A stretch of DNA of 36,805 nt. Source: a virus. The stretch is from positions 1-36,805 of IMG/VR virus record IMGVR_UViG_3300017917_000441. One strand, written 5' to 3'. This document shows positions 1 through 29,332 of this stretch, in pieces. Within the stretch, counting starts at the first letter, position 1. Every line of letters starts with the position of its first letter. The notes below the pieces were generated by a model, which searched no databases, was not told where the DNA came from, and saw only the letters and a program-made list of their open reading frames with translations. The position numbers and the translations under genes were made by a program.

Positions 1-3000
1 AGCTTTACCAAACATACCGTATGCAGTTGAGTTTGGACTGGTTATCTGCTGTTGCTGCACGTAAATGCTGAGACCTAGATCATCAAGCAAGGCGCTATCG
101 GTAGCAGTGATCTTGAGCTTATTAAGGGCGATCAGGCTATCAGTTGATATGGTCAACGCATTGTTTTCGCTGCTAGCAGACACACCCGGAATATTAGACT
201 CGTTAATGACTAACGTTATAGTGTCTAGGTCGTCGCCGTTCTGTATCTCAACCCAGCTATCATTTATTATCAAGTAAGCTGAGACGCTTGCAGTTGGGTT
301 AGTGACCGTGCCTGTTATCGTTCCGTAGAATCTACCCTGGTTGACGAATCTAAATACGCTTCCGGCATTTACCTTGTCGCTTCCTACGTCTTCAGACGGT
401 GCACCTATGTAGACTGAGCAGTTGCTTGGGCACATCTTTATGCTGTAACCAAAGTTTGCACCAGCTTCTGGAACATCAGCAGTCAATCTCGCAGTTTCTA
501 CGATTTGATTGTTTTCAATGACGATCTGCGATCCTACTATCGGAGCATCGATGAACAAGACGTCACCGGAGGACACAGTATATTCACCTATGCCGTAGCC
601 TGTTTCAAGTATCACTAACTCGCCTTCTACGTAAGTGCGTGGCAAGCTTGGATTATAAAAATCTGGAGATGCTGTGTTATCTAGTATGTTTGCAGTGAAC
701 AAGCTAGTGTTGCCATCAGCTGCATAGTATATCGCAGTCCTATCGTAGACATATGCTGCACCTGCATTTGCACGAGCATTGACTGTCTTGTTAGGTGCGC
801 CTACCAGCAATCTCCTACCATCTTCCGTAAAATCTAAGCTAGCGCCAAATCGATCACCTGTAGTATTGTCACTAGATGTAAACGCTTCGACCAATTCATA
901 GTATGATCTCTGATCAACTACAACGGTTTCGTCATCTGCAGGTGCAACCATCAAGGTAATCGAATCACCAGACACTGTGAAATCTCTGAATGGTATCAGC
1001 AGGACACCTTCTACAGAAACTTTTAGCTGATATGGGCTAGTAACGCCTGCGCTGTCACCTGTTAGCGTAAAGGTATCAGTGCTGCCATCACCAACGAACT
1101 CTTGCGTTGGCGTGCCCCTGGATACAGTGATCTCGATCTGCACGTCTGAAGAAGGCACATCGCTGAATACTACCGCACCAAGGTTTAGATCCCAGTTTAT
1201 GGTGCTGCCATCCAATGCAATCTGCGGAAGATCCTCACCGTCGACTGCAACCTTGACCGAGTTAACATCCTGAGGAGATGCTGCTAGACCAGTTAGCAAG
1301 AACGATACCGTAGATCCATCACCAGCAAATGACTGCGTGTATGGAGGTAACGATACTTTTTCCCTGAGCTGATACAGATAAACATAACCACCATCTATGT
1401 CTGGTTGTCCAATAGCTAACCATGCACCGTCATCGCTCTGTGCGATGGCACTACCAAAGTTACCACCAACATCTAGATCGTAAGGCGGTATGACCTGCTC
1501 TGTTATGAAGCTGCCGTTGACTTCAGATGTCTTGACTATGAAGACATATCCAGTGCTGCTGTTGCTACCTGGTGCAGCGATGACTCCGAATCCGTTGCTG
1601 CTAACAGCCACAGATTGTCCAAATTGCGAGATACCTGTGCTGGCCGGCGCAATGATGACATCGGCTGCTAGGTTTTCGCTGCCTTCGAGGAACTTGTAAG
1701 AGTAAACCTTCTGATCGCCTGGTTGTCCGACTAACAAGAACTTGTTGTTGTTATCAGTGTCTAAGCTGTCACCAAACGCACCGTTGATCGTAGCAGCAGG
1801 ACTGATGATTAAGCTAGCAGGATCAAATGGATAAAAATTACCTGCGTTAGAATATATCTGCTTTTTCTCGTAGACTGTCCAACCTTGCTCAGTTACGTTA
1901 TCGATGAAAAGCTTGTCTCCGGTCTTCCATCCGGTTACTGGTTCAGTTCCTGCTACCTCTGAGCTGTTGTCATATCTAAAGCTATTCAGCTTATAGAACT
2001 GACCTGAGAGCTTGATCTCAGGCACCGATGCAAAGTTAGTAACGACATTTACCGTGGTGTTGCTTATCACTGAGTCAACACGATAGAATCCGCTGTAAGA
2101 AGGTGTATTGTTGCTAGTCTTGATGAAGAAATAGTCACCTACCGATAATCCATGATTACCGTTCATCTTGATGGTAGCAAGACCAACGCGATTGATGCTG
2201 ATGCTTCTTAATCTGATGCCTGTCTCAGATATCCTCAGTATGTCCCAGAGATTGTTCTGATTGCTAGCCACCCATATGTAATCTCCGCTTCCAGCTTGAG
2301 AAGCATCAATGGTAGTATTCATGGTAGCTAAAGTAGGTGACGTATAATCTACGTCATCTAAAAGAGCATAACCTGCTGATGGGAGATCGGTTGGCAAGCT
2401 ATCAACTGATCTTGTTTTCAACCAATCCTTGTTCCATGGCTGAGATTTGACCCATATGTCATTCCTTTTATAGCTGTATATGCCGTCAGTAGGTTGATCG
2501 TTGTCAGCTAAGAATTCTATTACGATTGGATCTCTGTTAGCAGCAGTCTCATCAAGGTTGATCTGCAATAGCTCTCTGTTACCATAAGCGCCGTATTGAC
2601 CAGCCCTGACCGCCCATTCTTCAAAGTAATTCACCGTGCCATCAAAGTTATCTAGCTTAGCACGCAGAAGCTTATCAAGGCTATTCTTTGAGCCTTTCTG
2701 CGTGATCATTCCCTGATAGAACTTGGCCTGGCTCGTATCGCTGATCTGTAGATCTTCAAAATAGTTACGTGGACGAAGACCAATCAATCCCTTGCCTAGC
2801 CTATCTGCATCTAGCTCGAGATTAACTGCATCAATGTCATAGTATGACTTGCTTAGGCCAGCACGATTAGCAAGATTTGGCAGCAAGCCTTTCTTGACTT
2901 GTGTGTAATCGCTCTTTAACCAAACCTTGAAGTCAAATTCTGCACTGCCAGGTATGTTTTCGCTTGCAGTCCAATATGCATTCTTAAACAGGACTATCTC

Positions 3001-6000
3001 GCCCTTGTAGTAGTTCTTGCCCTGTTGCCATTCTTCGATGTTGTCATCGTTGATTATGAAGCCAGCAGCACTAAAGCTACCATCCCAGTCGCCCGTCTTG
3101 AATCCAGTCAACTTGAGCCTGTACTGCCTTGCACCTATCTTAGGATCATATATCACGTCGGCGAATCTAGTAAAGTTGTTAATGACCATGACGTGTTCAT
3201 AAGACACGACGTCGATATCTAGCAGATAAATTCCTACATTATCGTTTGTTTCTAGGCTAAACAGTCTGCCTTTTCTGCTTACCTGATAGTTCTCAGATCG
3301 CAGTATCTTGAAGTCTTCTGACAGGACTCTGCTGCCAGAAATCCTGTTCGTGAGTCCATCAACAACACCTAGATCTGATTGGAAATTGATCTTGCTGCCT
3401 ACAGGGCTGATGCTGATAGCTACATCCTGATCCCATCCCTGCTGCACATAGAACATGAACTCTCTTGCAGCGAGATCCCAGTCCTTGTAGAAAGCAGCAT
3501 CTTCATCTAGCTTATCTATGAATAAGAAGCCCTTTGAAGTGAGCCATCTACCGTAGCTGATCAAGAAGTCAACTACCTGCTCTACAGATAGGAATTCAGT
3601 GCCGTAAGGCACATCTACCAAGTAGCCGGTACCGTCTAGATATTTGGTAGCAGTTAGCCCGCCTACCTTTATCTGGTCTCTCCTTCCAGAAGTTGAGCTA
3701 GTTTCTATGGTAAAGTACGGACTGTTATCATCGTAACCATTCACGCTGTATCCTTCAGCAGTCTTGGTAACGATGACACCACTGTATGATATGGTAGTGA
3801 GCGGCGCGCTCTTGTTGATCACGAGCTGATAATCTTCATCAGGCACGGTCACGCTAGCGTTGGTGCTGCCAGGGCTTGCTTGATCAGCATATATCTTGAG
3901 ATACTTCTTATCAGTATAGCCGCCAACCTTGTAGGCTAGCTGCACGTTAAGGTTCCTAAGCTTATCACCAACTGCTATCGATCTATCTAGTCCCAATGAC
4001 ACTGCATATTCTGTCACATAAGACCATATACCATGGGATCTATAGATCTCGCCAGTCGTTGGATCAATCTCGCCATGCACGAGCGTCTGGGCTAGCTTTC
4101 TGAGGCCAGTGTCCTTGTAAACCCACTGCGTGTTATCTGGGCCAAACTCCTTGGCGACCTGCCTATTTCTATCTAAGTTAGCTCCAAAATATTCTGCTGG
4201 ATGCATCAGTGCCATAGCTATCTGCAGGACGAAAGGATATTCTGAGCTCTGCTTCCATGCTGTTTCGACAGGACCGCCGTCGCCAAACTTATATTGTCCG
4301 CTGACGTCTAGGCTGTTATAGTCCTTGACTATGCAGTCAAGAGGGCTAAGTGTTTCACCTGATTCGTTCACAGGTATGATGTTTATCAAACCTGGACGCT
4401 TGTATCTTTCATCAATGCCTTGCCTGTCGCCATCTACTATTCTACCTGCTTCTAGATCATCCCACAGAACCTTGTTACCCCTAGTGTAAGGTGCCTCACC
4501 ATAGTAGTACACCCACCAGTCTGGACGCTGGCTAAAGCCTAGCATCTCCCAAGGTCTGAGTTGAGGTGCGTCAGTGTCAAAGTAATGCTTGTAGATTCCT
4601 CTCCAATAAGCAGCGGGCATTGGAGCACTGTCGACCCTGCTGGTCGTCCTAGAATAGTTCCAGGTATAAGCATCGTTGCTATCAAAGTTAGAAAGATCGC
4701 TAGCACCAAGGCCGTTCTTGCCTAACCATGCATTAAACCTTGTGCTTAGTATCTGATCAAACTCTGCCTTGCTGTATTCTGTGTTCCTAAACGCGCCTGG
4801 TAGATAGCTCCTTATGTCAAAGAGAGCATCATCATGATTTACTTTTAGATTATTGTAAACCCTGCGCTCGTACTCAAGCAAGATCTCGTCTCTGTGGTCA
4901 CCAAACAGAGCAGTCAAGCTACCATCGTGTCCTCTTAGGACTTGGCGAGGATTAGCATCGTGGCCGTCTGTTATGATCATTGGCGTGTAAGCTTGATGCA
5001 GTCCAAGTTTGGTAGGAGTAGGCGGTATGAAGCTACCGTCAGTTGATCTATATTCTCTTATCGTTATCACGTCGCCTGTGTTTACGATAAGCTCGCTCTT
5101 GTTGAAGAAGTCAGTAGGATCAGCCGGTATGAGCTCGACCACAGGTTGATCAGGTATGAACCTATATTCCCTGTCCTTGATCAGCAGTTGGTTGTTCTTA
5201 TAGACCGTGATCGCCTTGTCAGATGCATTAACATCATCATATATGTCAGTGATGTCAAACTTGAGTAGATCAGCTGGTCGAACCACATAGGTCAACCTGT
5301 TAAAGTCTTGTCCAAAGCCTATCATATCGCTGTAGTAATATGGGAACAGCTGGTTCTTGCTGATGACCAGCTCTTGCATGATTTCATCTAGGCTAAGAAC
5401 AGGATCTAGAGGATTGGTTAGAGGCATCGAATATGCCAATTCAAGCAGCTTATTCTTGAATCTTACGTATTCTCTGTGAGCAAGATCCATGCTAGCAACG
5501 AAATTGACCTGTGCATCATTGAACAAGAGATTAGCAAGATGCGTCTGTCCTAGATTCTGTACTATCTTTCCGCCGTATCTCTTGACATCACCAAGGTCGC
5601 GACTGTTGTTCTTTCCGATGTAATCACCAACAAACCCAGGAGCAGTCTCGAAAACAGAAATGATGTGGCTTCTCATCTGTCCTAGCGTGAATGATCCTAG
5701 CTCATCATTGAACGGATTAAATTCGAGATTGGTAGGTACTTCGAACACAGAATTAGAGTTAGACCTTGTGGATCTAATCTTGATGTCGATCTTGTCTCCC
5801 ACTGCTAGATCGTTGTCTAACAGTAAGTATCCCTGTCCACCTTCTATCTGTATGTCAAACAATGATTGGTTCAATGAAGCATTGTTGATGCTGATCAACA
5901 AGTTGTCTAGCTCTACGAATCCGTTAGCACTGTATGGAAGAACGTTTAATGGGAACAAGTTCTTCTGATAATCAGTAGCAACATAAGTCTGTAATTGATA

Positions 6001-8907
6001 CTGCCCTGTGTTGCCTTCTTTCTCTTGCCATTGATTGCGATACTCTACAGAACCATCATCAAGATTGCGTGGAATCTTGCTGCCAGCAATAGATTTAGAT
6101 AGTGTCTTGCTGCCTGACCTATAGTTGAACGAACCAGAAGTGAGATAATCTGAGAACAGTATGTCGCCTACATTGTTTACTGTCCTGTACTTTAGTTTGA
6201 TTCCTAATTCTGGATCTACTGTGCCTGATGTTCCTTCTTGGTATCCAAATATCTTAGTACCAAAGAAATCGCTTAGTGGATATTCCACAGGATCGATCAA
6301 CGATGTTTCGTTGACGTCGACTAAGTGGAACAGAGGAGCTTGATTTCGCTGTAGCTTGTTCTGTCCTGATACCCAGTTTTCACCTGTATAATAGAATTGC
6401 TTTCCTTTGAAACTAAGGCCTTCTAACACTACTACAGTTTCGCCTTCGTCTACGTTATCGTCGACCAACTCTAAGTGTATCTGTGTCTCATACTTTAACA
6501 ATGCAGTGACATTAGAGCCTGCTGGAGGTATAGCGCCTACAAAGACCAACGTGTCGTTGTTTTGTATAGAATACTGATAGATGGTATCGTTTGAATCAAC
6601 GCCGTCGATCAATAGTCTGAAATTCAATGTGTCATAGACATCAAATCCAAGGTAATAAGAACTAGTGCTAGGATCAGTGATTATGCCTGTGCTTCTAGAA
6701 TCAGTGTCGCTCTGTGGCTTGATCCAGTTGACCTTCCAAACCTTGTCCTTAACGTCTGGATCTCTGTCTGCTGCAAATATGACCGTCATTCCAGGAACCA
6801 GAGGAACGCCATCTACTAGATAGCTAGATATTCCTTCGTTGTCTGCTCTAACCGGCTTGCCTTCAACTTGGCTTAGTGCATCAGTGGTCGTGAGGTCCAT
6901 GACCGTCACAGGATCTTTAGCTTTCTTTCCGAAGTCGTGTAGCTGTAGATCTGGAATGAACTCGATGATTGGTCGCTTGGCTCTTGACTCATAATCTAAA
7001 GTTGGTACTGTATTGTTGTATGATCCTGTGTCTCTGAGAACGTCCTCATGGAACCATCTGTTTATCCTAGACCATGCGTTGCTATCACGGCTTGCACGAT
7101 TGATGAGGATGTATTCCTTGTCAACTGCGCCTGTGACTGATTGGTCTAGCGTGCCTTGATCAAATCCTACAGTATCAAAAGGTGTAGATATGCTGCTTAG
7201 GTATGTTTCAGGTGTTACGAGAGTTGTTTCTGGCACCAGCCTGATACCTGTGCCAACGCCTTCTACGTAATACTTGTTACCTTTGAAAGATTCAGGAGAT
7301 ATGTCACCAGAGAACTCAACCTTAAGTCCGTTGGTAAATCTAACACCGTTAGGACTCGTGAATTCTTTAGCACCAATGATTGATTCATCAACATATATGA
7401 TGTTACCAGCGTCTTGATCGATCAGTTCGATAACGCCTTGAACATTAGGATCAATGCTGTCTTGATAATAAAGCACATCAAGATTAGCTGTCAGGTTCCT
7501 TATTAATTCTAGACCTTCTAGGCTATTGTATATCTCTCTGTTACCGTAGCTTATGCCTTCTAGTATTTCAATCTTGGTGTTAACCGGCACATCAAGATCA
7601 GGGACTAGCTTGATCAACCCGTCTGAAGTGATATTGATCCTAAAGCTTCCTGATCTATTTGCTTCTGGTACGTTATCACCCCTGTCGTAATTGAACGTAT
7701 CAAAAGGTATGTCGTCTGAGTCAAACGGTGAAGGATCATACCAGTTATCTAGATCATCAAAGATCTCAAGATTGCTGGTAGTAAAAGTCCTGCCTGTCAC
7801 AAAGGTGCTGAGCACTCTATATAAAGCAGAACCGTAAGTTACTAAGTCACCCTCTGCAAACTGTGTGAAAGGTTGCCAAGCTTGTGGTGTAGAATCCCTA
7901 GCTGGATCTGGAAGGAAGACTACGGTCTTGTTGTCGACGAACCTGCCGCCATCTATTCCGCCATATGTTTCGAGGACTTCGTCATACTTCTTGTACTGTA
8001 AATCAGTATATCTTAGCAATCTATTTTTCCTAGAACTGATTGCTACAAAGTTAGCACTGCCTATCTTTTCCATGGCAATGTAGAAATCTTGTGCGTTCTT
8101 TGCCGGCACGTTGAACGTGACTGTGCCTACTTCTGCACCGTTGTTCTCGACGCCAAAAACGTCTCTGACAAACAAGTTGTTCTGCCATGGTTCGCTCTCA
8201 GACAAGCCAGGCTTGGTCTGTATGAAGAACCCGTGACCAATCTGGTCCAAGCGGAAGTTATATGTGCCGCCACGAGCTAATCTCAAGCGAGGATTTGGAG
8301 TGTTGCCCACATGGCTAAATTTATAGCCATCGTTCCTAACCCTGATGGTAGGATTGAGGCTGACGCCGAATCCAATAGTATCAAAGTTATTAGATTCAAA
8401 AGTTCCGTCAACGACTTCATAGATGCTTGGTTGTGCAACATCTATGTCTAGATTGTTAGGTATAGGCACAGCATAAACAGACACAGGATCTGGGCCGTTT
8501 GGTAACCAATAATAGCTAGCAAAGTTTGCAAACTTATCATAATCAAACAATCCATCATAGCTGTACTGCTTGGCACGGAACAACCTAGAATGATCGTTGA
8601 CCTTTGCACCTAAGCTAGATAACCTGTCAATGAGATCCTGATAGGTTGAGACAAACTTTATCTTGTCTCGCACGTCCTTGAAAACCGTGCTAGGTTCTAG
8701 CTGGTAATCCTGCCTGAGGTCAGTTGACTCTTCGATGTATCCATCGCTCGTCCTGTATTGAGGCGCAAACTTCCTACCAATATATCCATCTAATCTCTTG
8801 AGCTCTGGCTCAGAGATCAGCTGATCCATAGTAGCTGTCAATAGCTTGTCATTGACATCTGTTCTGAATACGCTTGGTAGGAATTCAAGGCTACGCCTAT
8901 ATGCCAT
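1..8907 (-). CDS. Giant baseplate/tail structural protein, 3' end outside window
   Basis: An uninterrupted frame runs from ATG at 8907 to the left edge: 2969 codons, with the C-terminus missing. The start overlaps the gp6 stop by one base (TAATG), so the two are translationally coupled in the baseplate operon. The N-terminus (MAYRRSLEFLPSVFRTD) is of the type I associate with very large virion proteins next to gp6 in marine T4-like phages; this is recalled, not searched. Residues 1-2300 look like a long series of beta-rich modules without a catalytic motif I recognise. From about residue 2370 there are five FG-GAP-like repeats (FG...VGQPG, FG...AAPGS, FG...IGQPD, FG...VGAPN, FG...IGAPS), interrupted by two modules containing F-x-GDGST and LTG. 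By position it could replace T4 gp7 or other wedge/fibre proteins. The virion role is well supported; the exact role is unknown. Confidence 0.85.
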   Translation of the reverse strand, partial: MAYRRSLEFLPSVFRTDVNDKLLTATMDQLISEPELKRLDGYIGRKFAPQYRTSDGYIEESTDLRQDYQLEPSTVFKDVRDKIKFVSTYQDLIDRLSSLGAKVNDHSRLFRAKQYSYDGLFDYDKFANFASYYWLPNGPDPVSVYAVPIPNNLDIDVAQPSIYEVVDGTFESNNFDTIGFGVSLNPTIRVRNDGYKFSHVGNTPNPRLRLARGGTYNFRLDQIGHGFFIQTKPGLSESEPWQNNLFVRDVFGVENNGAEVGTVTFNVPAKNAQDFYIAMEKIGSANFVAISSRKNRLLRYTDLQYKKYDEVLETYGGIDGGRFVDNKTVVFLPDPARDSTPQAWQPFTQFAEGDLVTYGSALYRVLSTFVTGRTFTTSNLEIFDDLDNWYDPSPFDSDDIPFDTFNYDRGDNVPEANRSGSFRINITSDGLIKLVPDLDVPVNTKIEILEGISYGNREIYNSLEGLELIRNLTANLDVLYYQDSIDPNVQGVIELIDQDAGNIIYVDESIIGAKEFTSPNGVRFTNGLKVEFSGDISPESFKGNKYYVEGVGTGIRLVPETTLVTPETYLSSISTPFDTVGFDQGTLDQSVTGAVDKEYILINRASRDSNAWSRINRWFHEDVLRDTGSYNNTVPTLDYESRAKRPIIEFIPDLQLHDFGKKAKDPVTVMDLTTTDALSQVEGKPVRADNEGISSYLVDGVPLVPGMTVIFAADRDPDVKDKVWKVNWIKPQSDTDSRSTGIITDPSTSSYYLGFDVYDTLNFRLLIDGVDSNDTIYQYSIQNNDTLVFVGAIPPAGSNVTALLKYETQIHLELVDDNVDEGETVVVLEGLSFKGKQFYYTGENWVSGQNKLQRNQAPLFHLVDVNETSLIDPVEYPLSDFFGTKIFGYQEGTSGTVDPELGIKLKYRTVNNVGDILFSDYLTSGSFNYRSGSKTLSKSIAGSKIPRNLDDGSVEYRNQWQEKEGNTGQYQLQTYVATDYQKNLFPLNVLPYSANGFVELDNLLISINNASLNQSLFDIQIEGGQGYLLLDNDLAVGDKIDIKIRSTRSNSNSVFEVPTNLEFNPFNDELGSFTLGQMRSHIISVFETAPGFVGDYIGKNNSRDLGDVKRYGGKIVQNLGQTHLANLLFNDAQVNFVASMDLAHREYVRFKNKLLELAYSMPLTNPLDPVLSLDEIMQELVISKNQLFPYYYSDMIGFGQDFNRLTYVVRPADLLKFDITDIYDDVNASDKAITVYKNNQLLIKDREYRFIPDQPVVELIPADPTDFFNKSELIVNTGDVITIREYRSTDGSFIPPTPTKLGLHQAYTPMIITDGHDANPRQVLRGHDGSLTALFGDHRDEILLEYERRVYNNLKVNHDDALFDIRSYLPGAFRNTEYSKAEFDQILSTRFNAWLGKNGLGASDLSNFDSNDAYTWNYSRTTSRVDSAPMPAAYWRGIYKHYFDTDAPQLRPWEMLGFSQRPDWWVYYYGEAPYTRGNKVLWDDLEAGRIVDGDRQGIDERYKRPGLINIIPVNESGETLSPLDCIVKDYNSLDVSGQYKFGDGGPVETAWKQSSEYPFVLQIAMALMHPAEYFGANLDRNRQVAKEFGPDNTQWVYKDTGLRKLAQTLVHGEIDPTTGEIYRSHGIWSYVTEYAVSLGLDRSIAVGDKLRNLNVQLAYKVGGYTDKKYLKIYADQASPGSTNASVTVPDEDYQLVINKSAPLTTISYSGVIVTKTAEGYSVNGYDDNSPYFTIETSSTSGRRDQIKVGGLTATKYLDGTGYLVDVPYGTEFLSVEQVVDFLISYGRWLTSKGFLFIDKLDEDAAFYKDWDLAAREFMFYVQQGWDQDVAISISPVGSKINFQSDLGVVDGLTNRISGSRVLSEDFKILRSENYQVSRKGRLFSLETNDNVGIYLLDIDVVSYEHVMVINNFTRFADVIYDPKIGARQYRLKLTGFKTGDWDGSFSAAGFIINDDNIEEWQQGKNYYKGEIVLFKNAYWTASENIPGSAEFDFKVWLKSDYTQVKKGLLPNLANRAGLSKSYYDIDAVNLELDADRLGKGLIGLRPRNYFEDLQISDTSQAKFYQGMITQKGSKNSLDKLLRAKLDNFDGTVNYFEEWAVRAGQYGAYGNRELLQINLDETAANRDPIVIEFLADNDQPTDGIYSYKRNDIWVKSQPWNKDWLKTRSVDSLPTDLPSAGYALLDDVDYTSPTLATMNTTIDASQAGSGDYIWVASNQNNLWDILRISETGIRLRSISINRVGLATIKMNGNHGLSVGDYFFIKTSNNTPSYSGFYRVDSVISNTTVNVVTNFASVPEIKLSGQFYKLNSFRYDNSSEVAGTEPVTGWKTGDKLFIDNVTEQGWTVYEKKQIYSNAGNFYPFDPASLIISPAATINGAFGDSLDTDNNNKFLLVGQPGDQKVYSYKFLEGSENLAADVIIAPASTGISQFGQSVAVSSNGFGVIAAPGSNSSTGYVFIVKTSEVNGSFITEQVIPPYDLDVGGNFGSAIAQSDDGAWLAIGQPDIDGGYVYLYQLREKVSLPPYTQSFAGDGSTVSFLLTGLAASPQDVNSVKVAVDGEDLPQIALDGSTINWDLNLGAVVFSDVPSSDVQIEITVSRGTPTQEFVGDGSTDTFTLTGDSAGVTSPYQLKVSVEGVLLIPFRDFTVSGDSITLMVAPADDETVVVDQRSYYELVEAFTSSDNTTGDRFGASLDFTEDGRRLLVGAPNKTVNARANAGAAYVYDRTAIYYAADGNTSLFTANILDNTASPDFYNPSLPRTYVEGELVILETGYGIGEYTVSSGDVLFIDAPIVGSQIVIENNQIVETARLTADVPEAGANFGYSIKMCPSNCSVYIGAPSEDVGSDKVNAGSVFRFVNQGRFYGTITGTVTNPTASVSAYLIINDSWVEIQNGDDLDTITLVINESNIPGVSASSENNALTISTDSLIALNKLKITATDSALLDDLGLSIYVQQQQITSPNSTAYGMFGKA
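395..1795 (-). repeat. FG-GAP-like repeat cluster in the giant tail protein
   Basis: Five copies of a pattern FG-x(3)-hydrophobic-x(6-8)-hydrophobic(2-3)-G/A-x-P occur at about nt 1795-1730, 1630-1565, 1465-1400, 855-795 and 460-395. They correspond to roughly residues 2370, 2427, 2482, 2685 and 2817. The first three are evenly spaced at about 55-57 residues, as expected for blades of an integrin-alpha-type beta-propeller. The last two follow an insertion. The canonical calcium loop (DxDxDG) is degenerate: SDDG and TEDG remain in copies 3 and 4. The repeats diverge at DNA level, so this is a protein repeat and not a DNA repeat. Confidence 0.6.
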
Positions 8908-15137: not shown

Positions 15138-17954
15138 TCAGCCAGCATCATCTGCTGCGCCTGGGCTAGATGTGTTAGTAGTTGGCGATACTGGGGCTGG
15201 AGGCTGCACTGTGACATTGTTGCTGCTGTTGAATGTAGATGTGTTCACTGTTTGATTGGTATTAGCACCAGTCCTGCCTCCGCTAGTCTGCCTGTCACGG
15301 GTATTTCGGCCGCCTGAATTTTGATTATCCCTATTGACTGCGTTAGATGGTTTGTTCTCTGTTTGGTTCTTAGCTCTGACCATGTGTAAGGTTTGCTTGA
15401 ACTGACCGCTTTCAAACACTGATTCTACTGTTATGACTTGATAGACACCAGTTATCATGGTCTGATCTGTCGTGAGTTCCATCAACCCTGTGGTATCTGA
15501 ATAATCTCTCGGAGTCTTGAACTTGATCTTGGCATAGACCGCTTCTGCGTCAACAGCTATGCTACCATTTCTGTCAAACCCATCAGTTGATATCTCTACT
15601 AGATCGCCTTGTGGCCTGACAGACAAGTCCTGTGGTATCCAATCTGGATCTCCAATGATGTCTATGTCAAGCTGAACTAAGTCAGCATTATTAGGATTGT
15701 TCAGCTGCTGATCAAAGTATTCTTGCACGGCAGTATCTCTGGCACCCCTTAGGATAGTATAAGATGCTTGCCCAGGCTGGCCCATGTAAGCATATGTTGT
15801 TTCGTTAGTTCCTGGGTTATCTGGTGCAACGGTATCTTCCACAGTGTTCGTGCCGGACATCGCCTGGCTGGCGCTAGGACTTGCATTCTGGAATAGATTG
15901 AAGTAAGCTAGATTATACTGTAGATCAATGTTGATGATGTCTTGGTTCTTGCCTGTGAACAACCAATTATACTCTTTAGCTATCAGTCCTCGATCAACAG
16001 TAGCTTGTCCTGCATATGGATATATCTCTCCGTACTTGAAGTACGTGGTTACTTTGTAGGTTACTGTTCTCTGATAACGCTGCCTGATCTTATCAAACTC
16101 GCCTAGTTCCACGACAGGTATGACCTTGATCAATTCCATGGGTTTATCTTTTTGGCTGTTAGGCGCGTCAGTCGTCATCCTATCCTGGAAGTATTTGGTT
16201 TGCATGGCTATGCGCTGCACCACGTCCTTGATGTTAGATCCGCCTGCTACCTCAAAATATTGCCTGAGTGGATCATTAACTGGTGCATCAGTTGGACCAC
16301 CAGCAGTTGGTCTCGAAGTACCTCGCTTGTATATCACCGTGCTATCGCTGTCTACTGATTTGAAAGTTACCTTGCTGTTCAGCAGTTCATCGTTCTTGCT
16401 GTTGTTAGGACCAAAGCTTGTTACCACGAACTTATATCTGTCAGGTAACTCACAAAGCTTCTTATCTTTGGCATCATCTTCTTGATCGTTCAATGCCTGA
16501 GCTAAACTGTTAGGCCCTTCTACCAGGATCTCTTTGAGATTCTGCCCGTATAGCTGCAATCTTTGCCTTGCTACACCAAACTGTGTGTTGAGGGCAATCT
16601 GGCTGTAAGGGACCATCGTTATGTTATAGGTAGTACCTGCACCGGTGATGTTAAAAGTTATGTTGATTATCTGGCAAGGAATTAACTTAGGGCCAGAATC
16701 TTTTATGTTAGTAACGATCTTACCGTTATCATCATAACCTACGAACTTTATCTCGAGGAGATAAGGCAATTGGAAATGCTGTTGGCTTCCGCCCATCTCG
16801 TCTGCCATTCGCTTGAGCTCTGGAAGGAAGTTTACTCCGTAAGGTTCAACCACAGACATCTCTATAGAAAACAGGTTAGCGTTAGGACTTGCTTTGTTAT
16901 TGCCAATCACACCAGATGTCCTCAAGTTAGAAACATACAGGTCATTCTTCATGCCTGAATCGCCTTTCTTGAAGCCTCCAGACTTCAGCACTGGTCGACC
17001 ACGAAGGTTGCCCGAGTCTTTGCCAGACAACACGAATTCATTGTAGGTGCCGACGTCTAGCATGTAAAGTCCTATCTGGTACGTCCAGTTGACATATTCA
17101 TGCAGTATGTTTGATCTAACTCTTATCTTCCTGTTTAACGGGGTTTCGTTAGCTGATGTTAATGCGGTTACGCCGCCGCCGTTAGTAGTGACGCTGTTAT
17201 TACCGCCAGTTGCCGGCCCAGTTCCTCCTCTGTTAGGATCAGTGGCAGTTCCTTTGTCATCGTCGATAGGAGTAGCAGTGTTTGATGATCCACCGCCTTC
17301 TCTGTTAGGATCAGTGGTAGTAGTTTGGGATCCTTGTTCTGTCTTACTGGTTGACGGGCCAGTTGAGTTTCCTGGGCTTGGTGTAGCATCAGACGTGCCG
17401 CTGGGAGGCGCAGTGCCATTGCTAGGAGAGGCAGTATCGCCTTGATTAGGACGCTGCTGCTGATTCTGAACGCTTGGGGCATCAGTAGCAGCGGATCCAT
17501 CTGTTGTGTTCCTGGCGCTGGCACCAGTTTGGATCTTACCGGGATCATTCGGGTGCTGCGTGCCAGTATTTGGTTTTGGTGTAGTTGAGCTGCCTGATAT
17601 GGCAGAATATGCATCGTCTCTGTTTGGGACAGACCCTACGTTAGATAGTGGTTGTTTAGCATTTGGAAAATTTATGGTACCGTCGGTCTTTACATAGAGC
17701 TGATCTGATACCAGCTTACCTGTGGTTTGTGATTCAACATAAGGATATTTCTGCAATATCTCTTGCAGCTTAGGTTCAGCCTGCATGCGCCAACCATTGG
17801 GGAACGATTCAATCGTCACGCCGTTAACTGTCTGGTATGTCCTGTTGGCTGCTAGATAATCATTCCATTCTGTTCTTGCTTGATTTAGCTGCCTGACTGC
17901 TTCTGCCTTGTCAGCTGCGGTGCTGCTAACAGTAAGCTGGTATTGATCTGCCAT
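15138..17954 (-). CDS. Large baseplate hub protein (gp27-position)
   Basis: A 938-residue protein between gp53 and the gp5-like spike, the place where a gp27-type hub protein is expected. I do not recognise enough sequence to assert homology with T4 gp27 (391 residues). Residues 1-115 form a small N-terminal region. Residues about 115-285 are a Ser/Thr/Gly/Pro/Asn-rich linker with two TDPNR-containing repeats. The folded part, about 285-875, contains stretches typical of hub/tube-like beta domains (SIEMSVVEPYGVNFLPELKR; LPYLLEIKFVGYDDNGKI; TYNITMVPYSQIALNTQFG). The last 65 residues are again low complexity. The start at 17954 follows the gp53 stop by one base (TAACATG). A structural role is well supported by context; the specific name is inference. 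Confidence 0.75.
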   Translation of the reverse strand: MADQYQLTVSSTAADKAEAVRQLNQARTEWNDYLAANRTYQTVNGVTIESFPNGWRMQAEPKLQEILQKYPYVESQTTGKLVSDQLYVKTDGTINFPNAKQPLSNVGSVPNRDDAYSAISGSSTTPKPNTGTQHPNDPGKIQTGASARNTTDGSAATDAPSVQNQQQRPNQGDTASPSNGTAPPSGTSDATPSPGNSTGPSTSKTEQGSQTTTTDPNREGGGSSNTATPIDDDKGTATDPNRGGTGPATGGNNSVTTNGGGVTALTSANETPLNRKIRVRSNILHEYVNWTYQIGLYMLDVGTYNEFVLSGKDSGNLRGRPVLKSGGFKKGDSGMKNDLYVSNLRTSGVIGNNKASPNANLFSIEMSVVEPYGVNFLPELKRMADEMGGSQQHFQLPYLLEIKFVGYDDNGKIVTNIKDSGPKLIPCQIINITFNITGAGTTYNITMVPYSQIALNTQFGVARQRLQLYGQNLKEILVEGPNSLAQALNDQEDDAKDKKLCELPDRYKFVVTSFGPNNSKNDELLNSKVTFKSVDSDSTVIYKRGTSRPTAGGPTDAPVNDPLRQYFEVAGGSNIKDVVQRIAMQTKYFQDRMTTDAPNSQKDKPMELIKVIPVVELGEFDKIRQRYQRTVTYKVTTYFKYGEIYPYAGQATVDRGLIAKEYNWLFTGKNQDIINIDLQYNLAYFNLFQNASPSASQAMSGTNTVEDTVAPDNPGTNETTYAYMGQPGQASYTILRGARDTAVQEYFDQQLNNPNNADLVQLDIDIIGDPDWIPQDLSVRPQGDLVEISTDGFDRNGSIAVDAEAVYAKIKFKTPRDYSDTTGLMELTTDQTMITGVYQVITVESVFESGQFKQTLHMVRAKNQTENKPSNAVNRDNQNSGGRNTRDRQTSGGRTGANTNQTVNTSTFNSSNNVTVQPPAPVSPTTNTSSPGAADDAG
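17229..17317 (-). repeat. 17-base direct repeat in the hub linker
   Basis: The 17-mer TCTGTTAGGATCAGTGG (plus-strand reading) occurs at 17229-17245 and again at 17301-17317. The offset is 72 bases, exactly 24 codons. It encodes the twice-repeated TDPNR element in the low-complexity linker of the hub protein. Nucleotide identity suggests a fairly recent in-frame duplication. Confidence 0.7.
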
Positions 17955-19396: not shown

Positions 19397-20215
19397 TTGG
19401 CTAAAGTCAATTACCTCAACAACAGAGATCTGCTGCGGGAGATCCATAAGAGCAAGAGCTCTTACTGTTATTTCTTAGATAAATCAGATGCTGCATATGA
19501 CATGATACTGCCTAGCGTCAGCAAGATAAACCGCAATAGCATAGCACAAGCTAAGCGCAACAGAGCAGAACGGTTAGCTCGAGAAGCGTGGGAGATAGCC
19601 TTAAAGGAAAACCCAAAAGTCAAGCTAGACGAGTTTAGGCAAGACCCCAAGAAGATAGTCAAGACTGATTTGGTGTTCAGGATCATGACGTTCGATCACA
19701 TACCATTGGCTCCAGGTAGGAAGAAAACACCAAAGACCAAGAGCGATCATCACGTCAGGATAAACTTTCCTCCTTTCCAGCATTTCAAGATAAGGGAAGA
19801 TGACAGCCCGTATTGCGTGGGCAAGAGCCATTGGCAAGGTGGATTAGAAAACGGAGAGTTTTCCAAGGACCACGGCAAGATGACCAACGAGCTAGCCAAG
19901 ATGTTCATGAAGTTGTGCGAACGCTATGGTACCAGGGGCAACTGGCGCGGTTATACCTACAATGACGAGATGCGAAGCCAAGCACTGCTACAGCTAAGCC
20001 AAGTTGGATTGCAGTTCGACGAGAGCAAGAGCTCTAATCCGTTTGCTTATTACACAGCTACCATAACCAACTCATTCACCCGCATACTCAATCTCGAAAA
20101 GAGAAACCAAAGCATGCGTGACGACATACTAGAGATGAATGGCATGACACCTAGCTACACTCGCCAGACTGAGTGGGGCATGGGCGGTGGTGGCGGGCGA
20201 GGACCAGATGAATGA
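19397..20215 (+). CDS. 55: Late-transcription sigma factor gp55
   Basis: A 272-residue homologue of T4 gp55 (185 residues), the phage sigma factor that directs host RNA polymerase to late promoters together with the sliding clamp. The family signature is in the C-terminal third: NDEMRSQALLQLSQVGLQFD followed by NPFAYYTATITNSFTRILNLEKR. This corresponds to the sigma region-2-like helices that recognise the -10-like late motif. The N-terminal 150 residues are longer than in T4 and basic. The start is TTG at 19397, preceded by GGAG with 7 bases of spacing; no ATG competes. The C-terminal tail is Gly-rich. The next gene starts inside its stop (ATGA overlap). Confidence 0.93.
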   Translation: MAKVNYLNNRDLLREIHKSKSSYCYFLDKSDAAYDMILPSVSKINRNSIAQAKRNRAERLAREAWEIALKENPKVKLDEFRQDPKKIVKTDLVFRIMTFDHIPLAPGRKKTPKTKSDHHVRINFPPFQHFKIREDDSPYCVGKSHWQGGLENGEFSKDHGKMTNELAKMFMKLCERYGTRGNWRGYTYNDEMRSQALLQLSQVGLQFDESKSSNPFAYYTATITNSFTRILNLEKRNQSMRDDILEMNGMTPSYTRQTEWGMGGGGGRGPDE

Positions 20216-20946
20216 AGCTGATCGCAGGTGGCGACAGCTTTGTTTGGGGAAGTGAGCTAGCTGATCATAAGCATGCTGGTCCCGGCGGTCATAGCCTTTC
20301 TACTTTTGCTGCTCTGCTGTCACAGAAGAACAACCTAGAGTATCGTTGCGTGGCCATACCAGGTTCTGGTAATGACAGCATCGCTAGGCAAGTGATGTCA
20401 GCTTGTTCAAAAAACAAGGATGCAGTGGTGTTAGCGTCTTGGACTTGGAGTGCAAGATACGAGTTTAGATTCACGCACGATAATAGATGGGAAACCGTCA
20501 GTGCTAGGCAATATGAATTGGGATCTAAGCTGAATGTTCCGCATAGAGATTTCATCAAGCACTTCTTTCAATCAGTTGGATTCAGCGACTATTGGGAAAC
20601 TTATAACAGCCTCAGAGAAATGCTTAGATTGCAAGACTATCTCAAGCTGAGGCACATACCTTACATGTTCACCATATCAGACAATTGGTTTGACAAGGCG
20701 CACGCTATCAAGCATCAAGACGACAACATCAGAGCATTGCATTCTGAGATTGATTGGACACGATGGTATCTCTTTCCTGCAGGCACCGAAGGCAATCATA
20801 CCTTAACACCACGCGGTTTCTATCAATGGGCAATAGAAGAAGGATACGAGATAGCCCCGCAACATCATCCGCTTGAATCTGCTCATCGAGATGCAGCCGA
20901 GATGATGTCAGATCATTTCTTGACCATGTTACAGTCAAGACCGTAA
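20212..20946 (+). CDS. SGNH/GDSL-hydrolase-like protein
   Basis: A 244-residue protein with the layout of the SGNH hydrolase family. Block I is GGDSFVWG near residues 7-14 (candidate nucleophile Ser9). A GSGNDS motif at about 52-57 resembles the Gly and Asn oxyanion-hole blocks. Near the C-terminus HHPLESAHRDAAEMM contains a late His like block V (DxxH). Substrate is unknown; family members cleave ester bonds in lipids or acylated carbohydrates. It overlaps the gp55 stop by 4 bases and precedes gp47, so it is made with sigma and recombination proteins and not with tail proteins. No signal peptide is visible, so it should act in the cytoplasm. Fold assignment is moderate; function is not established. 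Confidence 0.65.
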   Translation: MKLIAGGDSFVWGSELADHKHAGPGGHSLSTFAALLSQKNNLEYRCVAIPGSGNDSIARQVMSACSKNKDAVVLASWTWSARYEFRFTHDNRWETVSARQYELGSKLNVPHRDFIKHFFQSVGFSDYWETYNSLREMLRLQDYLKLRHIPYMFTISDNWFDKAHAIKHQDDNIRALHSEIDWTRWYLFPAGTEGNHTLTPRGFYQWAIEEGYEIAPQHHPLESAHRDAAEMMSDHFLTMLQSRP

Positions 20947-25054: not shown

Positions 25055-26089
25055 TCACATGATGATAGCTGCTTCTCTCTGTGTAAAGAGATTGAATGTA
25101 TCACCTGATCTGTTTAAGTCAAGTGTAGAGCAGTGAATGCCATTATCCCAGAAGTATTGATGTCGATAAGGACACACGATGGGTTCGATGCTGTGCTTGT
25201 CTAGGAAATCAAACACTCGATTGTCATGCTGTGCGAACACTACCTTGCTCTCGTCGATGATCAATGCATTGATGCTGAATATGGTTTCCTGTACGTTACC
25301 TATCCAATCAGTCAACCATGCAGCTACGAACTGCTCGAACTCTTGATCAGTCTCTCCGCGGATCATCCACCACTTGGTAAAGTCTGGTGATCTAGCGTTA
25401 GTCATCTTCCTGTAGGGATGATCCTCATCGCTATCGATCTCTAGCATGTCCCAGTCTGGCATGAGTGTTGACCAATCGATACCTATGTCCCTACGTGCGA
25501 TGCCCACGCCTGGCTTGAGGAATATGAAGTCTCCATCGTTGTGGCCTCCCAGCGTTATCTGGTTGATGCGATTGTGCGGTAGCTGTTTTTGCAGCCAGGC
25601 TATTTCTATGTGATGGAAGGTAGCATATCGATCAACGATTATGTCTTGTCCAAGCTGCGTGATGCTGGGAGCAGCTAGTTCATTGTATGATCTCTTGGAA
25701 TATCCCGGCAATCTCAGGAAAGGCGCATAGCAAACATCTTCTAGCTTGCTTATTATGTTAGGATGATCAGCACCTACCAAGAACATCTTATCGCCTATGA
25801 CCAACTGGCCATCTCGTGGTGCCATGGGCGGTCTAGGTACCAACGTGCTGTCTTTGATATGCTGCTGTATGCTGCCTTCTGCTCGATCAGGTCTGATGAC
25901 GCCAACGCCTTGCTGTCTTAGAAGATCGCAGAGCCTTTGGAAATCTTCTTCGGTCTCGTCAGCTATCTGCTCCAGCATGTGCTTGGTCTTGCTGTTGGGC
26001 ATCTCGCGGAAGAACTCGCGATCATAGACTCGCCCAACCATTGCGTTGCGCAAAGGGTGCCACTGGCAATGTATGTTGAGATCGATCAT
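25055..26089 (-). CDS. Glycine-amidinotransferase-like enzyme (guanidine-group superfamily)
   Basis: A 344-residue protein of the guanidine-modifying (GATM/arginine deiminase/DDAH) superfamily. Visible parts: HPLRNAMVG at 11-19; RPPMAPRDG at 86-94; GGHNDGDFIFLKPGVGI at 181-197, where His183 and Asp185 match the H-x-D of GATM; QETIFSINALII at 267-278; and GIHCSTLDLNR at 317-327 with Cys320 as the candidate nucleophile, matching the HC of GATM. Such enzymes move an amidino group from arginine to an amine, or hydrolyse arginine-like substrates; the acceptor here is unknown. All candidate catalytic residues are present, so it is probably active. ATG 26089 overlaps the stop of the 58-aa ORF (TGATG), tying a metabolic enzyme to a tail-assembly operon. 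Similar genes are known in marine T4-like phages, by recollection. Confidence 0.85.
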   Translation of the reverse strand: MIDLNIHCQWHPLRNAMVGRVYDREFFREMPNSKTKHMLEQIADETEEDFQRLCDLLRQQGVGVIRPDRAEGSIQQHIKDSTLVPRPPMAPRDGQLVIGDKMFLVGADHPNIISKLEDVCYAPFLRLPGYSKRSYNELAAPSITQLGQDIIVDRYATFHHIEIAWLQKQLPHNRINQITLGGHNDGDFIFLKPGVGIARRDIGIDWSTLMPDWDMLEIDSDEDHPYRKMTNARSPDFTKWWMIRGETDQEFEQFVAAWLTDWIGNVQETIFSINALIIDESKVVFAQHDNRVFDFLDKHSIEPIVCPYRHQYFWDNGIHCSTLDLNRSGDTFNLFTQREAAIIM

Positions 26090-26265
26090 CAGAAGAACGG
26101 CATGCCTGATTTCTTGGTAGTCTCGAGGTTTTCCTTGATCAAAGATCCAATTAGCTTCTTATCTTCGAGATCGAGATCCCAAGCTTCTGTCATGGTGATG
26201 CCACCACGCATGTACCAACATATCTTGATTATTTCGTTCTTGATCTCGTTGACCTCCCGGTCCAT
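26089..26265 (-). CDS. 58-aa ORF after gp26-like gene; candidate frameshift extension
   Basis: A short ORF from ATG 26265 to TGA 26091-26089 encoding 58 residues (MDREVNEIKNEIIKICWYM to KKSGMPFF), helical with a conserved-looking WYMRGGITM segment. Its frame stays open upstream of the ATG into the end of the gp26-like gene, back to and beyond the heptamer A_AAT_TTT at 26328-26322. The ATG has no Shine-Dalgarno sequence and lies just after a perfect 7-bp hairpin (26289-26272). Both facts favour translation by -1 frameshifting from the gp26-like gene, giving a 351-residue fusion, like the lambda G/GT tail chaperones. Re-initiation after the gp26-like stop at 26298 is the alternative. It resembles small tail-chaperone partners by context only. 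Confidence 0.7.
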   Translation of the reverse strand: MDREVNEIKNEIIKICWYMRGGITMTEAWDLDLEDKKLIGSLIKENLETTKKSGMPFF

Positions 26266-26271
26266 GCTAGA

Positions 26272-26289
26272 CAGATAGCTAACTATCTG
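26272..26289 (-). repeat. Perfect 7-bp hairpin between gp26-like stop and 58-aa ORF ATG
   Basis: The minus strand reads CAGATAG-TTAG-CTATCTG. It lies 32 bases after the slippery heptamer and 6 bases before the ATG of the 58-aa ORF. It may hide that ATG from ribosomes or help stall elongating ribosomes, though the distance is longer than for classic frameshift stimulators. Confidence 0.6.
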
Positions 26290-26297
26290 TTCGTTAT

Positions 26298-27143
26298 CTA
26301 GCGTGAGGAGCCGGGACCGAAAAAATTTGCAGGATTGAACTCTAGCTTAGTCTCGTAGGTCTTTGTGCATCCTTCGCAGTTAACGGTCAGCATGGGCAAC
26401 TGATAACCTTTGACATATCCATCAATGATAGATCTGATATTATCAAATGTTTCTTTATCTACGTTGCTGATGAAATCAGCAATCATCCCTTTATCAGTCA
26501 CTACTTCACCATCAGGGGTTGTTATCTTTTGAACGCTTTCTGCCAGTCTCAGCCCTAGCTTGCTAGCAAGAGTCTTGATAGCACCTTGCAGTATGTTCTG
26601 CCTTTGGCTAGTGGTGATGTTTTCTTGCGCAAGCTGCATGATGATCCTCTGTTCATCATACGTGTCTTGATCTAGCTGATTAATAGCTCTGTAATCAGTT
26701 GGTTTGAGATGAAGTAACAATGTACCGCAGGAATACTTTGGATCATCTTCAGGTTGCTTGATGTTTTCTAAAACCCAACGCAAGTCTATCTCACCGTCGT
26801 TGACATGATTGCAATGCGGGCACTTAGTTTCGATCTTCATCTCATGCCCGTAAGTTGCTATCCTGATAGCTATCAATATGACGTCTAGATCAGTCCTAGG
26901 TGTGCTCCACGGGTCTAGTATATTTGGCATGCAGCTCTGTATCATGCTGGTAGTAGCGGTTCCGTTCATCAGAGCGTCAGCATTCTTTACTAATAGCTCA
27001 TCCTTGCCTGTCATGCTGAGAACCGGGTATTCACCGTTCTCAGTCTTGGCTAAAGAACCTTCTGGCCACCATCTGTCTTGTCCAGGCAGCTTGATGAATA
27101 TCTTTGGTTGCCTAAAGTGCTTGCGCAATGGGTTATCGGTCAT
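26298..27143 (-). CDS. 26: Baseplate hub/tail assembly protein, gp26-like
   Basis: A 281-residue protein of the T4 gp26-type baseplate family. The N-terminus (RKHFRQPKIFIKLPGQDRWW) and the zinc-ribbon cysteines are the main marks: Cys108-P-H-Cys111 and Cys256-E-G-Cys259, flanking a helical middle with DQDTYDEQRIIMQLAQENI. T4 gp26 has 208 residues and is needed for hub assembly. The C-terminus is FFGPGSSR with TAG at 26298, but a slippery heptamer sits 8 codons before the end. It is the first gene of its minus-strand operon, with a perfect TATAAATA 38 bases upstream, and is divergent from the tape measure gene. The ribosome-binding site is weak (CGGAAA). Family assignment is fairly secure; the role as hub component or chaperone is inferred. 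Confidence 0.8.
   Translation of the reverse strand: MTDNPLRKHFRQPKIFIKLPGQDRWWPEGSLAKTENGEYPVLSMTGKDELLVKNADALMNGTATTSMIQSCMPNILDPWSTPRTDLDVILIAIRIATYGHEMKIETKCPHCNHVNDGEIDLRWVLENIKQPEDDPKYSCGTLLLHLKPTDYRAINQLDQDTYDEQRIIMQLAQENITTSQRQNILQGAIKTLASKLGLRLAESVQKITTPDGEVVTDKGMIADFISNVDKETFDNIRSIIDGYVKGYQLPMLTVNCEGCTKTYETKLEFNPANFFGPGSSR
26322..26328 (-). promoter_or_regulatory. Candidate -1 frameshift slippery site A_AAT_TTT
   Basis: In the reading frame of the gp26-like gene the codons are GCA AAT TTT TTC (Ala272-Asn-Phe-Phe). This gives a zero-frame X_XXY_YYZ heptamer, A_AAT_TTT, followed by three more T. A -1 slip enters the open frame of the 58-aa ORF, bypassing the TAG stop at 26300-26298. 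The linking residues would be F-R-S-R-L-L-T-L-D-N-E-Q-I-V-S-Y-L-S-S before Met. Confidence 0.5.
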
Positions 27144-27199: not shown

Positions 27200-29332
27200 A
27201 TGGCCGTTACGGGAAAATTTGGTGATGAGAACATAGAGCTCAACAATGCTGCTGAAGAAGCAACGTTGCAAGAGCTTGTGGACATAATGAAGAAAGCTAC
27301 CACATCTGGTGGTAAGCTTGATCCTAAAGCCATGCAGGGATTAACTGACTCTGCTAAGAAAAACACATCTAGCTTAAACGACATGCTCAAATCAGCTACT
27401 CGCGGTGCTGACGGTCTAGACGAGCTTGCTACCGAGTCCGAAAAGGGACAGAAAGCAATCAAGAATTTTGGCAGCAGCATGGCGTCTACTGCTTCTAACT
27501 TTGCCAAGAGCATGACACAAGCTAGTGGCGAAGGTGCAGTCAAGAACGTGTTTGAAGCCGCTACAAACGGAATCACTGACACCATAGAAGCAATAGGTGA
27601 CGTAGTACCCGGTGGCGTTGGAAAAGCCATAGCTGGTGGAGCGAGTGCGGTAATCGGCACCATTGGCGGTGCAGCTGGTTTCTTCATAGGTACCATGCAA
27701 GAGTTTGGGGAAAGCTTCCGCGAGCAAGCTAACATGGGATTCATAGCTGGCGAGGGAATAGGTGCTTTCAACAACAAGATACTAGAGTCTGGCATGACCT
27801 TTGGGCAGTTCAACGCTCTATTGAAGGAAAATTCTGAAAATTTAAGGACGATGGGCGGATCAGTTAGCCAGGGTGCTAGACAAGTATTGAGATTGCGCAA
27901 GTCCTTGCAAGGACAAGAAGAGCAGTTTCTGAGATTAGGTTACGCTCAAGAAGAACTAGCACCTATGTTGGCAGAATATTCTGCCATCTTAGAACGAGGT
28001 GCAAGTAGTAGAACTATTAGCGATCAGCAGCTTATAGAACAGAGCTATGAATACGCTAAGAGCTTGCGATTAATGACTGATCTCACAGGCAAGAGCGCAA
28101 AAGAGTTGCAAGATGAAGCTCAAGCTGCGGCTACTGAAGCTAAGAATCAAGCTTATCTAATGGACCTAGAAAGGCAAGGTCGAGCAGGCGCTAGCACTAC
28201 GTTTGGAATGATCTCAAGCGATCTAGCCAGACTTGCACCTGGATATGAAAATTTGTTTAAGGATTACAACACCCAATATGGTGTTGCTATGAGCGCCACG
28301 ACTGGTATCTTAGAATCACAGAATCCTGCTCTAGCAGGTGTCTTGCGCGAGATGAAAGAAGGTATCGCAAATGGCACCATTAACGAAACTAATGCAAGAG
28401 ATATTTTTATACAGAAGATAAAAGAAAACGAAGAAGGAATTAATCAAGGACTTAGGAATATTGCTAATCTGGCACAAGCAGGTATTGAAGGTACTGAAGG
28501 TGTTGGTGTTGCTATCAAGAACTTGAATGATATCTTTAAGCTTGATCTTGAAGCTGCAAAAACAAACTTAGATAAAGCAAAGACAACTAAAGATGAGTTA
28601 ACCACATCTTATGTTTCGTTGTCAAACGCTAATCAGAATCTAGCACGGATACAGAATGAATTAGCGAATGCTATTGGAGCTGCAGGAACTAAGTTTGGAT
28701 TAGTTGGCGGAATAGAATCTGCTACAGATGCTTTAAAATCATGGACTGAAGCCTTGCGTCCTGAATTTTCAGCTGAGAGGTTAAGTGCAGGAGCAGAAGC
28801 AGCTACGAGAGTAGGTGAAGGCGGGTTAGTTGAACCAGTTCCTCAGAATTTAGGAAGAGGCGGCACTAGACCGTTGACAAGTGCTCAACAGCAGCAGCTA
28901 GCTGACTTTGAGAGATTCGAAGGCATGAGTGACGAAGAACTTGCGCAGATAGGCATGAGAAGAAGCATAGCGTCAGGTTCTGGATTGTTTGGATCTGATT
29001 TCCTAAGCAGTTGGGTTGGAGATAACATCTATGAAAAAGTCAATGATAGGAACATGCCAGGTAATACTCCCACAGTCAGTGAAAAGCGTTTTGCCAGGGG
29101 AGGCATTATTCCAGACATGGGACCTGATGGAATCAGCATCAGAGCAGGTGACGGTGTTTCAGAAGCAGTAGTTCCTTTGCCTGACGGTCGCAATATTCCA
29201 GTCAACATGAGCACAGACTTCAAACAAACTAATCAACTTTTAGGTTCACTTATCTCTATCAACCGTGCTATGCTACAGGCAATGGAACAAAGCAACAATA
29301 TCAGCAGAACCTCTGCTATGTACGCTAGGTAA
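27200..29332 (+). CDS. Tail length tape measure protein
   Basis: A 710-residue protein with tape-measure features. It has an alpha-helical, Ala/Glu/Gln-rich body, a hydrophobic Gly-rich segment at about 135-165 (VVPGGVGKAIAGGASAVIGT) that could insert in the host membrane, and a C-terminal end typical of tape measures (FARGGIIPDMGPDGISIRAG; GVSEAVVPLPDGRNIPV). It would set tail length from inside the tube, as T4 gp29 does (590 residues). At roughly 0.15 nm per residue the tail would be about 105 nm. It starts 57 bases from the divergent gp26-like gene, keeping the tail-chaperone/tape-measure neighbourhood seen in other tailed phages. The start follows GGGTAGATA. Role is well supported; homology with gp29 is unproven. 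Confidence 0.82.
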   Translation: MAVTGKFGDENIELNNAAEEATLQELVDIMKKATTSGGKLDPKAMQGLTDSAKKNTSSLNDMLKSATRGADGLDELATESEKGQKAIKNFGSSMASTASNFAKSMTQASGEGAVKNVFEAATNGITDTIEAIGDVVPGGVGKAIAGGASAVIGTIGGAAGFFIGTMQEFGESFREQANMGFIAGEGIGAFNNKILESGMTFGQFNALLKENSENLRTMGGSVSQGARQVLRLRKSLQGQEEQFLRLGYAQEELAPMLAEYSAILERGASSRTISDQQLIEQSYEYAKSLRLMTDLTGKSAKELQDEAQAAATEAKNQAYLMDLERQGRAGASTTFGMISSDLARLAPGYENLFKDYNTQYGVAMSATTGILESQNPALAGVLREMKEGIANGTINETNARDIFIQKIKENEEGINQGLRNIANLAQAGIEGTEGVGVAIKNLNDIFKLDLEAAKTNLDKAKTTKDELTTSYVSLSNANQNLARIQNELANAIGAAGTKFGLVGGIESATDALKSWTEALRPEFSAERLSAGAEAATRVGEGGLVEPVPQNLGRGGTRPLTSAQQQQLADFERFEGMSDEELAQIGMRRSIASGSGLFGSDFLSSWVGDNIYEKVNDRNMPGNTPTVSEKRFARGGIIPDMGPDGISIRAGDGVSEAVVPLPDGRNIPVNMSTDFKQTNQLLGSLISINRAMLQAMEQSNNISRTSAMYAR

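Follow-up and report, generated by a model that had tools for sequence, protein, structure and literature searches.

Frameshifting in tail assembly chaperone genes is classical. In lambda, the short chaperone (gpG) binds the tape measure protein and the −1 form (gpGT) recruits tail tube subunits; counterparts in other long-tailed phages likewise make a short and a −1-extended chaperone, and the review describing them names T4 as the exception (PMC5009743). For T4, the hub assembly chaperones listed include gp26 and gp51, of which gp51 is needed for assembly and is not present in the particle (PMC3004832). Vladimirov, Gautam and Davidson (Virology 2022;566:9-15) are credited, in a passage of PMC12846349, with T4-like tail assembly chaperone genes and poly-T −1 signals, and are cited, in a passage of PMC10885494, for phages that have one short copy and one longer, fused copy. 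Because these passages credit T4-like chaperones and poly-T signals to that work, the kind of system is already known; the initial annotation of the DNA studied here was aware of no established case for T4-type gp26, a view that appears to be wrong. Phage Adele and the Vandenendeviridae/Andersonviridae have a poly-T motif, an open −1 frame and an extension annotated as a separate hypothetical gene (PMC12846349). In cyanophages and vibriophages a "short gp51" of about 20% length, missing the first ~200 residues, was described as a reduced gp51, and frameshifting was not invoked (Sullivan et al. 2010, PMC3037559).

We analyzed a 36,805-nucleotide stretch of virus DNA (the window; IMG/VR record IMGVR_UViG_3300017917_000441) that carries a gp26-like gene. 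Like T4 gp26/gp51, this gene belongs to PF12322; its predicted long form has a C-terminal extension at the same place as that of gp51, and it shares a poly-T slip signal with the T4-like TAC-N genes credited in the passage of PMC12846349. T4 uses two genes, which probably arose by duplication, whereas the window and its relatives have one gene and a predicted −1 slip. The arrangement of a short and a −1-extended chaperone is that of lambda gpG/gpGT, but the heptamer and the protein family differ, and a long downstream stem is conserved in the window's group. Adele shares the poly-T motif, open frame and separately annotated extension with the window but belongs to other phage families and has GTTTTT where the window has T_TTT_TTC. 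In the collection of papers searched, none combined jumbo phage, ribosomal frameshift and tail assembly chaperone. On sequence grounds, the window is a well-supported new case of predicted frameshifting; its possibly new aspects are the jumbo-phage group, the precise heptamer that is conserved (T_TTT_TTC), the stem that covaries, and the account of the cyanophage "short gp51".

The gp26-like gene and its −1 extension

The positions of the relevant features are given in Table 1. The short form matched the PF12322 (T4_baseplate) profile with an E-value of 5e-14 (52.9 bits; cut-off 24.5) and phrog_150 (baseplate hub) with an E-value of 1.3e-16. Its AlphaFold2 model had a pLDDT of 90, and in BFVD the model matched predicted T4-like baseplate hub proteins (best E 6.7e-24). 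The PDB, searched by sequence and by fold, yielded no clear relative, and the model had no significant match there to a solved chaperone fold; this absence proves nothing.

Table 1 Features of the gp26-like locus in the window
Feature	Positions	Strand	Evidence or remark
gp26-like zero-frame ORF (281 aa), short form of the tail assembly chaperone (T4 gp26/gp51 type)	26298..27143	(-)	PF12322, phrog_150, AlphaFold2
Slippery heptamer T_TTT_TTC, predicted −1 frameshift site	26319..26325	(-)	Phase conservation in homologues
−1-frame extension, 76 codons + stop, C-terminal domain of long form	26089..26319	(-)	Open in homologues
58-aa ORF, contained within −1 extension	26089..26265	(-)	Open reading frame
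ATG of 58-aa ORF	26263..26265	(-)	Inside 3' side of stem, without Shine-Dalgarno
Predicted stimulatory stem-loop	26255..26316	(-)	−29.3 kcal/mol, z −3.67 vs dinucleotide shuffles
Stem pairs	26316-26311/26260-26255, 26309-26307/26263-26261, 26302-26297/26271-26266, 26289-26283/26278-26272	(-)	Folding
Apical 7-bp hairpin CAGATAG-TTAG-CTATCTG, caps longer stem	26272..26289	(-)	Folding

The short form ends in ...NPANFFGPGSSR-stop, the zero-frame stop being TAG, and T_TTT_TTC lies 8 codons before it. The sequence TTTTTTC occurs once on both strands of the whole window, against 3.8 occurrences expected from dinucleotide shuffling, and the window's main genes contain nine Phe-Phe pairs, of which the one at the slip site alone is coded with TTT first. 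In the −1 frame no stop interrupts the stretch from the T run to the end of the 58-aa ORF. A −1 slip after codon 275 would give 275 + 76 = 351 residues, in agreement with the fusion length predicted originally; across the junction the product would read FF-RSRLLTLDNEQIV... and continue for 76 residues to 26089. The extension was modeled by AlphaFold2 as helical with a pLDDT of 92, and one predicted helix (extension residues 9–37) runs across the position of the ATG (residue 19). The 25 nt 5' of that ATG, ACAGATAGTTAGCTATCTGTCTAGC, contain no Shine-Dalgarno sequence, as the initial annotation had stated, and the ATG is probably not a start.

The divergent neighboring gene at 27200–29332, which had been taken to be the tape measure, gave no profile or family match, and that identification was not confirmed; the C-terminus of its product looks tape-measure-like, and its Kaldavass equivalent had weak tape-measure matches (E 0.0035 and 0.0041). 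On the other side, at 25055–26089 (−), is a 344-aa ORF whose ATG overlaps the extension stop (TGATG); it matched phrog_25854 (function unknown; E 6.4e-16) and no Pfam family, and looks amidinotransferase-like. Elsewhere in the window, a 2969-aa ORF at 1–8907 (−) runs off the left contig end and adjoins a gp6-like baseplate wedge gene, and a 244-aa ORF at 20212–20946 (+) has an SGNH/GDSL-hydrolase-like start (GGDSFVWG) and no Pfam match.

Open −1 frame and slip site in homologues

A tblastn search found homologues in 62 phage records. The junction sequence was inspected in isolates and in another 80 loci of IMG/VR. In all, 100 loci were tabulated, drawn from jumbo phages, cyanophages, a pelagiphage, KVP40, Aeh1 and IMG/VR contigs; removal of near-copies left 76 non-redundant lineages. 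The collection scan used the closer alignment A2, alignment A1 being too divergent. Loci were collected with two peptide patterns, one containing FF; because the pattern was back-translated into degenerate DNA, codon choice at the slip site should be unbiased by it. A guessed extension peptide used as query recovered only the three already-known records.

The −1 frame was open in all 76 lineages, with a mean of 0 stops compared to 7.3 in the zero frame and 6.6 in the +1 frame. The extension was 75–77 residues long in 62 lineages, and the zero-frame stop lay 2–12 codons past the slip site, most commonly 3. Between the slip site and the ATG, conservation tracked the −1 codon positions (0.68, 1.04 and 0.31 bits), and in tblastn comparisons of the window's −1 frame with Atu_ph07 (E 1e-9) and Phosso (E 2e-8) the similarity began upstream of the ATG. 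An ATG at the window's codon was found in only 17 of the 76 lineages. The homologue comparison suggested at the outset thus came out as predicted there: a slippery heptamer (T_TTT_TTY, in 99 of 100 loci) and the open −1 frame are kept and the ATG is not.

These data bear on whether the downstream ORF could instead encode a separate small protein, either initiated at its own ATG or made by ribosomes that re-initiate once past the zero-frame stop (translational coupling). In 17 of the 76 lineages a −1 ATG overlaps or touches the zero-frame stop, as in Atu_ph07, Phosso, 121Q, KVP40 and others (ATGA or TAATG), which would also permit coupled re-initiation, and several of these phages have the extension annotated as a gene of its own. 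However, the window's ATG lacks a Shine-Dalgarno sequence, falls within the stem and is missing from that position in the other 59 lineages, and the extension of Pseudomonas phage MIJ3 has no ATG, GTG or TTG at all. Moreover, coupling requires neither T_TTT_TTC nor a downstream stem, and both are conserved; and the same domain appears to be fused in frame in T4 gp51. We therefore regard a separate protein as very unlikely.

An in-phase T_TTT_TTY was present in 99 of the 100 loci, as T_TTT_TTC in 96 and T_TTT_TTT in 3. In the 65 aligned lineages, all seven heptamer bases and the following G were invariant, wobble positions included. If lineages were independent, the chance of these TTT and T-ending codon choices would be ~10^-33; they are not independent, and the figure is an illustration, not a probability. 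The sole exception was Rhodothermus phage RM378 (locus at ~2014–2043), which has TCC TTT TTT TGG with the continuing open frame in +1; its sequence suggests a +1 (or −2) shift.

The slip site proposed originally was A_AAT_TTT. This heptamer is indeed present in phase in the window (26328–26322), and in lineages with AAT before Phe-Phe (AAT TTT TTC in 62 of the 100 loci); the conserved heptamer is T_TTT_TTC, which overlaps it 3 nt downstream. The codon before T_TTT_TTY varies (AAT, GAT, AGT, CAT, ACT, TCT or GCT) and always ends in T. Because only this final T is constant, A_AAT_TTT is not general: it is impossible after GAT, AGT, CAT, TCT, ACT or GCT, yet T_TTT_TTY is always there. That ribosomes slip on A_AAT_TTT is, in our estimation, slightly less likely still than a separate protein.

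RNA stem downstream of the slip site

The perfect hairpin noted before the ATG is real, and proved to be the apical part of a longer stem (26316–26255). The 90 nt after the slip site in the window had a z-score of −4.7 against synonymous-codon shuffles. The stem starts 2 nt past the heptamer. Stimulatory stems usually lie 5–9 nt from the slip site; since the window's is nearer, its lowest pairs would need to open when the ribosome sits on the site.

In each of the 76 lineages, the folding of the 90 nt that follow the heptamer was compared to controls in which synonymous codons were redrawn from the same gene. The mean z-score was −3.13, with z < −2 in 57 lineages, compared to means of −0.47 for control stretches further down and −0.21 for those upstream. 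Stems anchored at this place had on average 9.4 Watson-Crick pairs versus 5.2 in shuffles. The 5' arm, often AAGGCUUUUGAC, mostly starts 3–6 nt past the heptamer, and its 3' partner is found at several alternative places; the window carries its own version of the stem. A gapless consensus fold of the post-slip stretch found no structure because the 3' arm stands at differing distances, and the stem was resolved by folding each sequence separately and by using a subset of same spacing. In this subset of 30 lineages a 17-pair helix was 83% paired, and at 7 pairs both partners had changed. Its covariation score was 0.151, compared to 0.091 for shuffles (0 of 500) and to no more than 0.085 when slid. 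Folding gave no unusual stem after the slip site in Kaldavass, Syn9 and HTVC008M. In three loci (L054, L065 and L089) the 5' arm just past the slip site can pair with two downstream partners (i+j 41 and 59), which suggests alternative stems. No Rfam family, tRNA or terminator was found at the frameshift site.

The stem also bears on transcriptional slippage, in which RNA polymerase slipping on the six-T/U run would produce a mixed mRNA population and the ribosome would not slip. A run of at least six T was kept in 99 of the 100 loci, which speaks for such slippage; however, polymerase slippage usually takes more than six bases, most lineages have not extended the run, and the phase together with a covarying stem just downstream fits ribosomal slippage. 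Of the explanations weighed so far we give this one the least credence. A sequencing error or gene decay splitting one ORF, which a single contig could carry, has a negligible chance of explaining a frame arrangement that recurs in 99 loci, which come from independent metagenomes as well as complete genomes of isolates.

We conclude that one message very probably yields two proteins by programmed −1 ribosomal frameshifting at T_TTT_TTC in the gp26-like gene, a conclusion drawn from comparative sequence evidence. The sequences themselves show the slip site, the open −1 frame and its conservation, the RNA stem, and the single gene copy of relatives. For the window we infer the slipping, its rate and the chaperone role as follows. 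Most ribosomes would terminate at the TAG, giving the short chaperone of 281 residues. A smaller share, held up by the downstream stem-loop, would slip one base back on T_TTT_TTC, the P-site UUU and A-site UUC re-pairing as UUU, UUU, and would read on to 26089 to give the 351-residue long form with its helical C-terminal domain. By analogy to lambda and T4, the short form, present in many copies, would hold or coat the tape measure, and the long form, present in few, would recruit tail components.

T4 gp26 and gp51 and the origin of the two forms

Both T4 gp26 (E 8.8e-64) and gp51 (E 3.9e-52) matched PF12322, and gp26 has no slip site. A single PF12322 copy was found in 19 of the 21 records searched whole, the exceptions being T4 and Campylobacter phage NCTC12673, both of which lack the slip site. 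The latter has two adjacent copies (record positions 15536–16650; loci L032/L034/L035), the first without a slip site and the second with a C-terminal extension, possibly a second, separate gene duplication like that of T4.

A profile of cyanophage-type −1 extensions matched gp51 residues 208–244 (E 1e-7, one target) and did not match gp26; the extension read in −1 by cyanophage-type relatives appears to be present in frame in gp51, the long form. A profile of the extension from the window's own clade did not reach that of gp51. The "short gp51" of Sullivan et al. (PMC3037559) fits the −1 extension found in S-PM2, Syn9, P-SSM2 and KVP40. In a tree of the short domain (moderate support, midpoint rooting), gp26 and gp51 were grouped and adjoined KVP40 and Aeh1, which carry slip sites. 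This fits a single duplication among single-gene frameshifters as the origin of gp26/gp51. More tentatively, and with rather less confidence than doubt, we suggest that the ancestral T4-type chaperone may have been a single gene frameshifting at T_TTT_TTC with a stem, its 5' arm fixed and its 3' arm moved to several places, and that this state was kept in jumbo phages, cyanophages and vibriophages and replaced once, by duplication, in the T4 branch.

These results suggest why T4 is the exception: relatives with a single gene would rely on frameshifting, and in the T4 branch duplication would have given each form a gene of its own, gp26 or gp51. They also offer an explanation of the "truncated" cyanophage gp51 (PMC3037559). 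In many jumbo-phage records, the small genes that follow gp26 and are labeled "hypothetical" probably encode the end of the chaperone. With slip site and stem both conserved, the short-to-long ratio can be tested directly.
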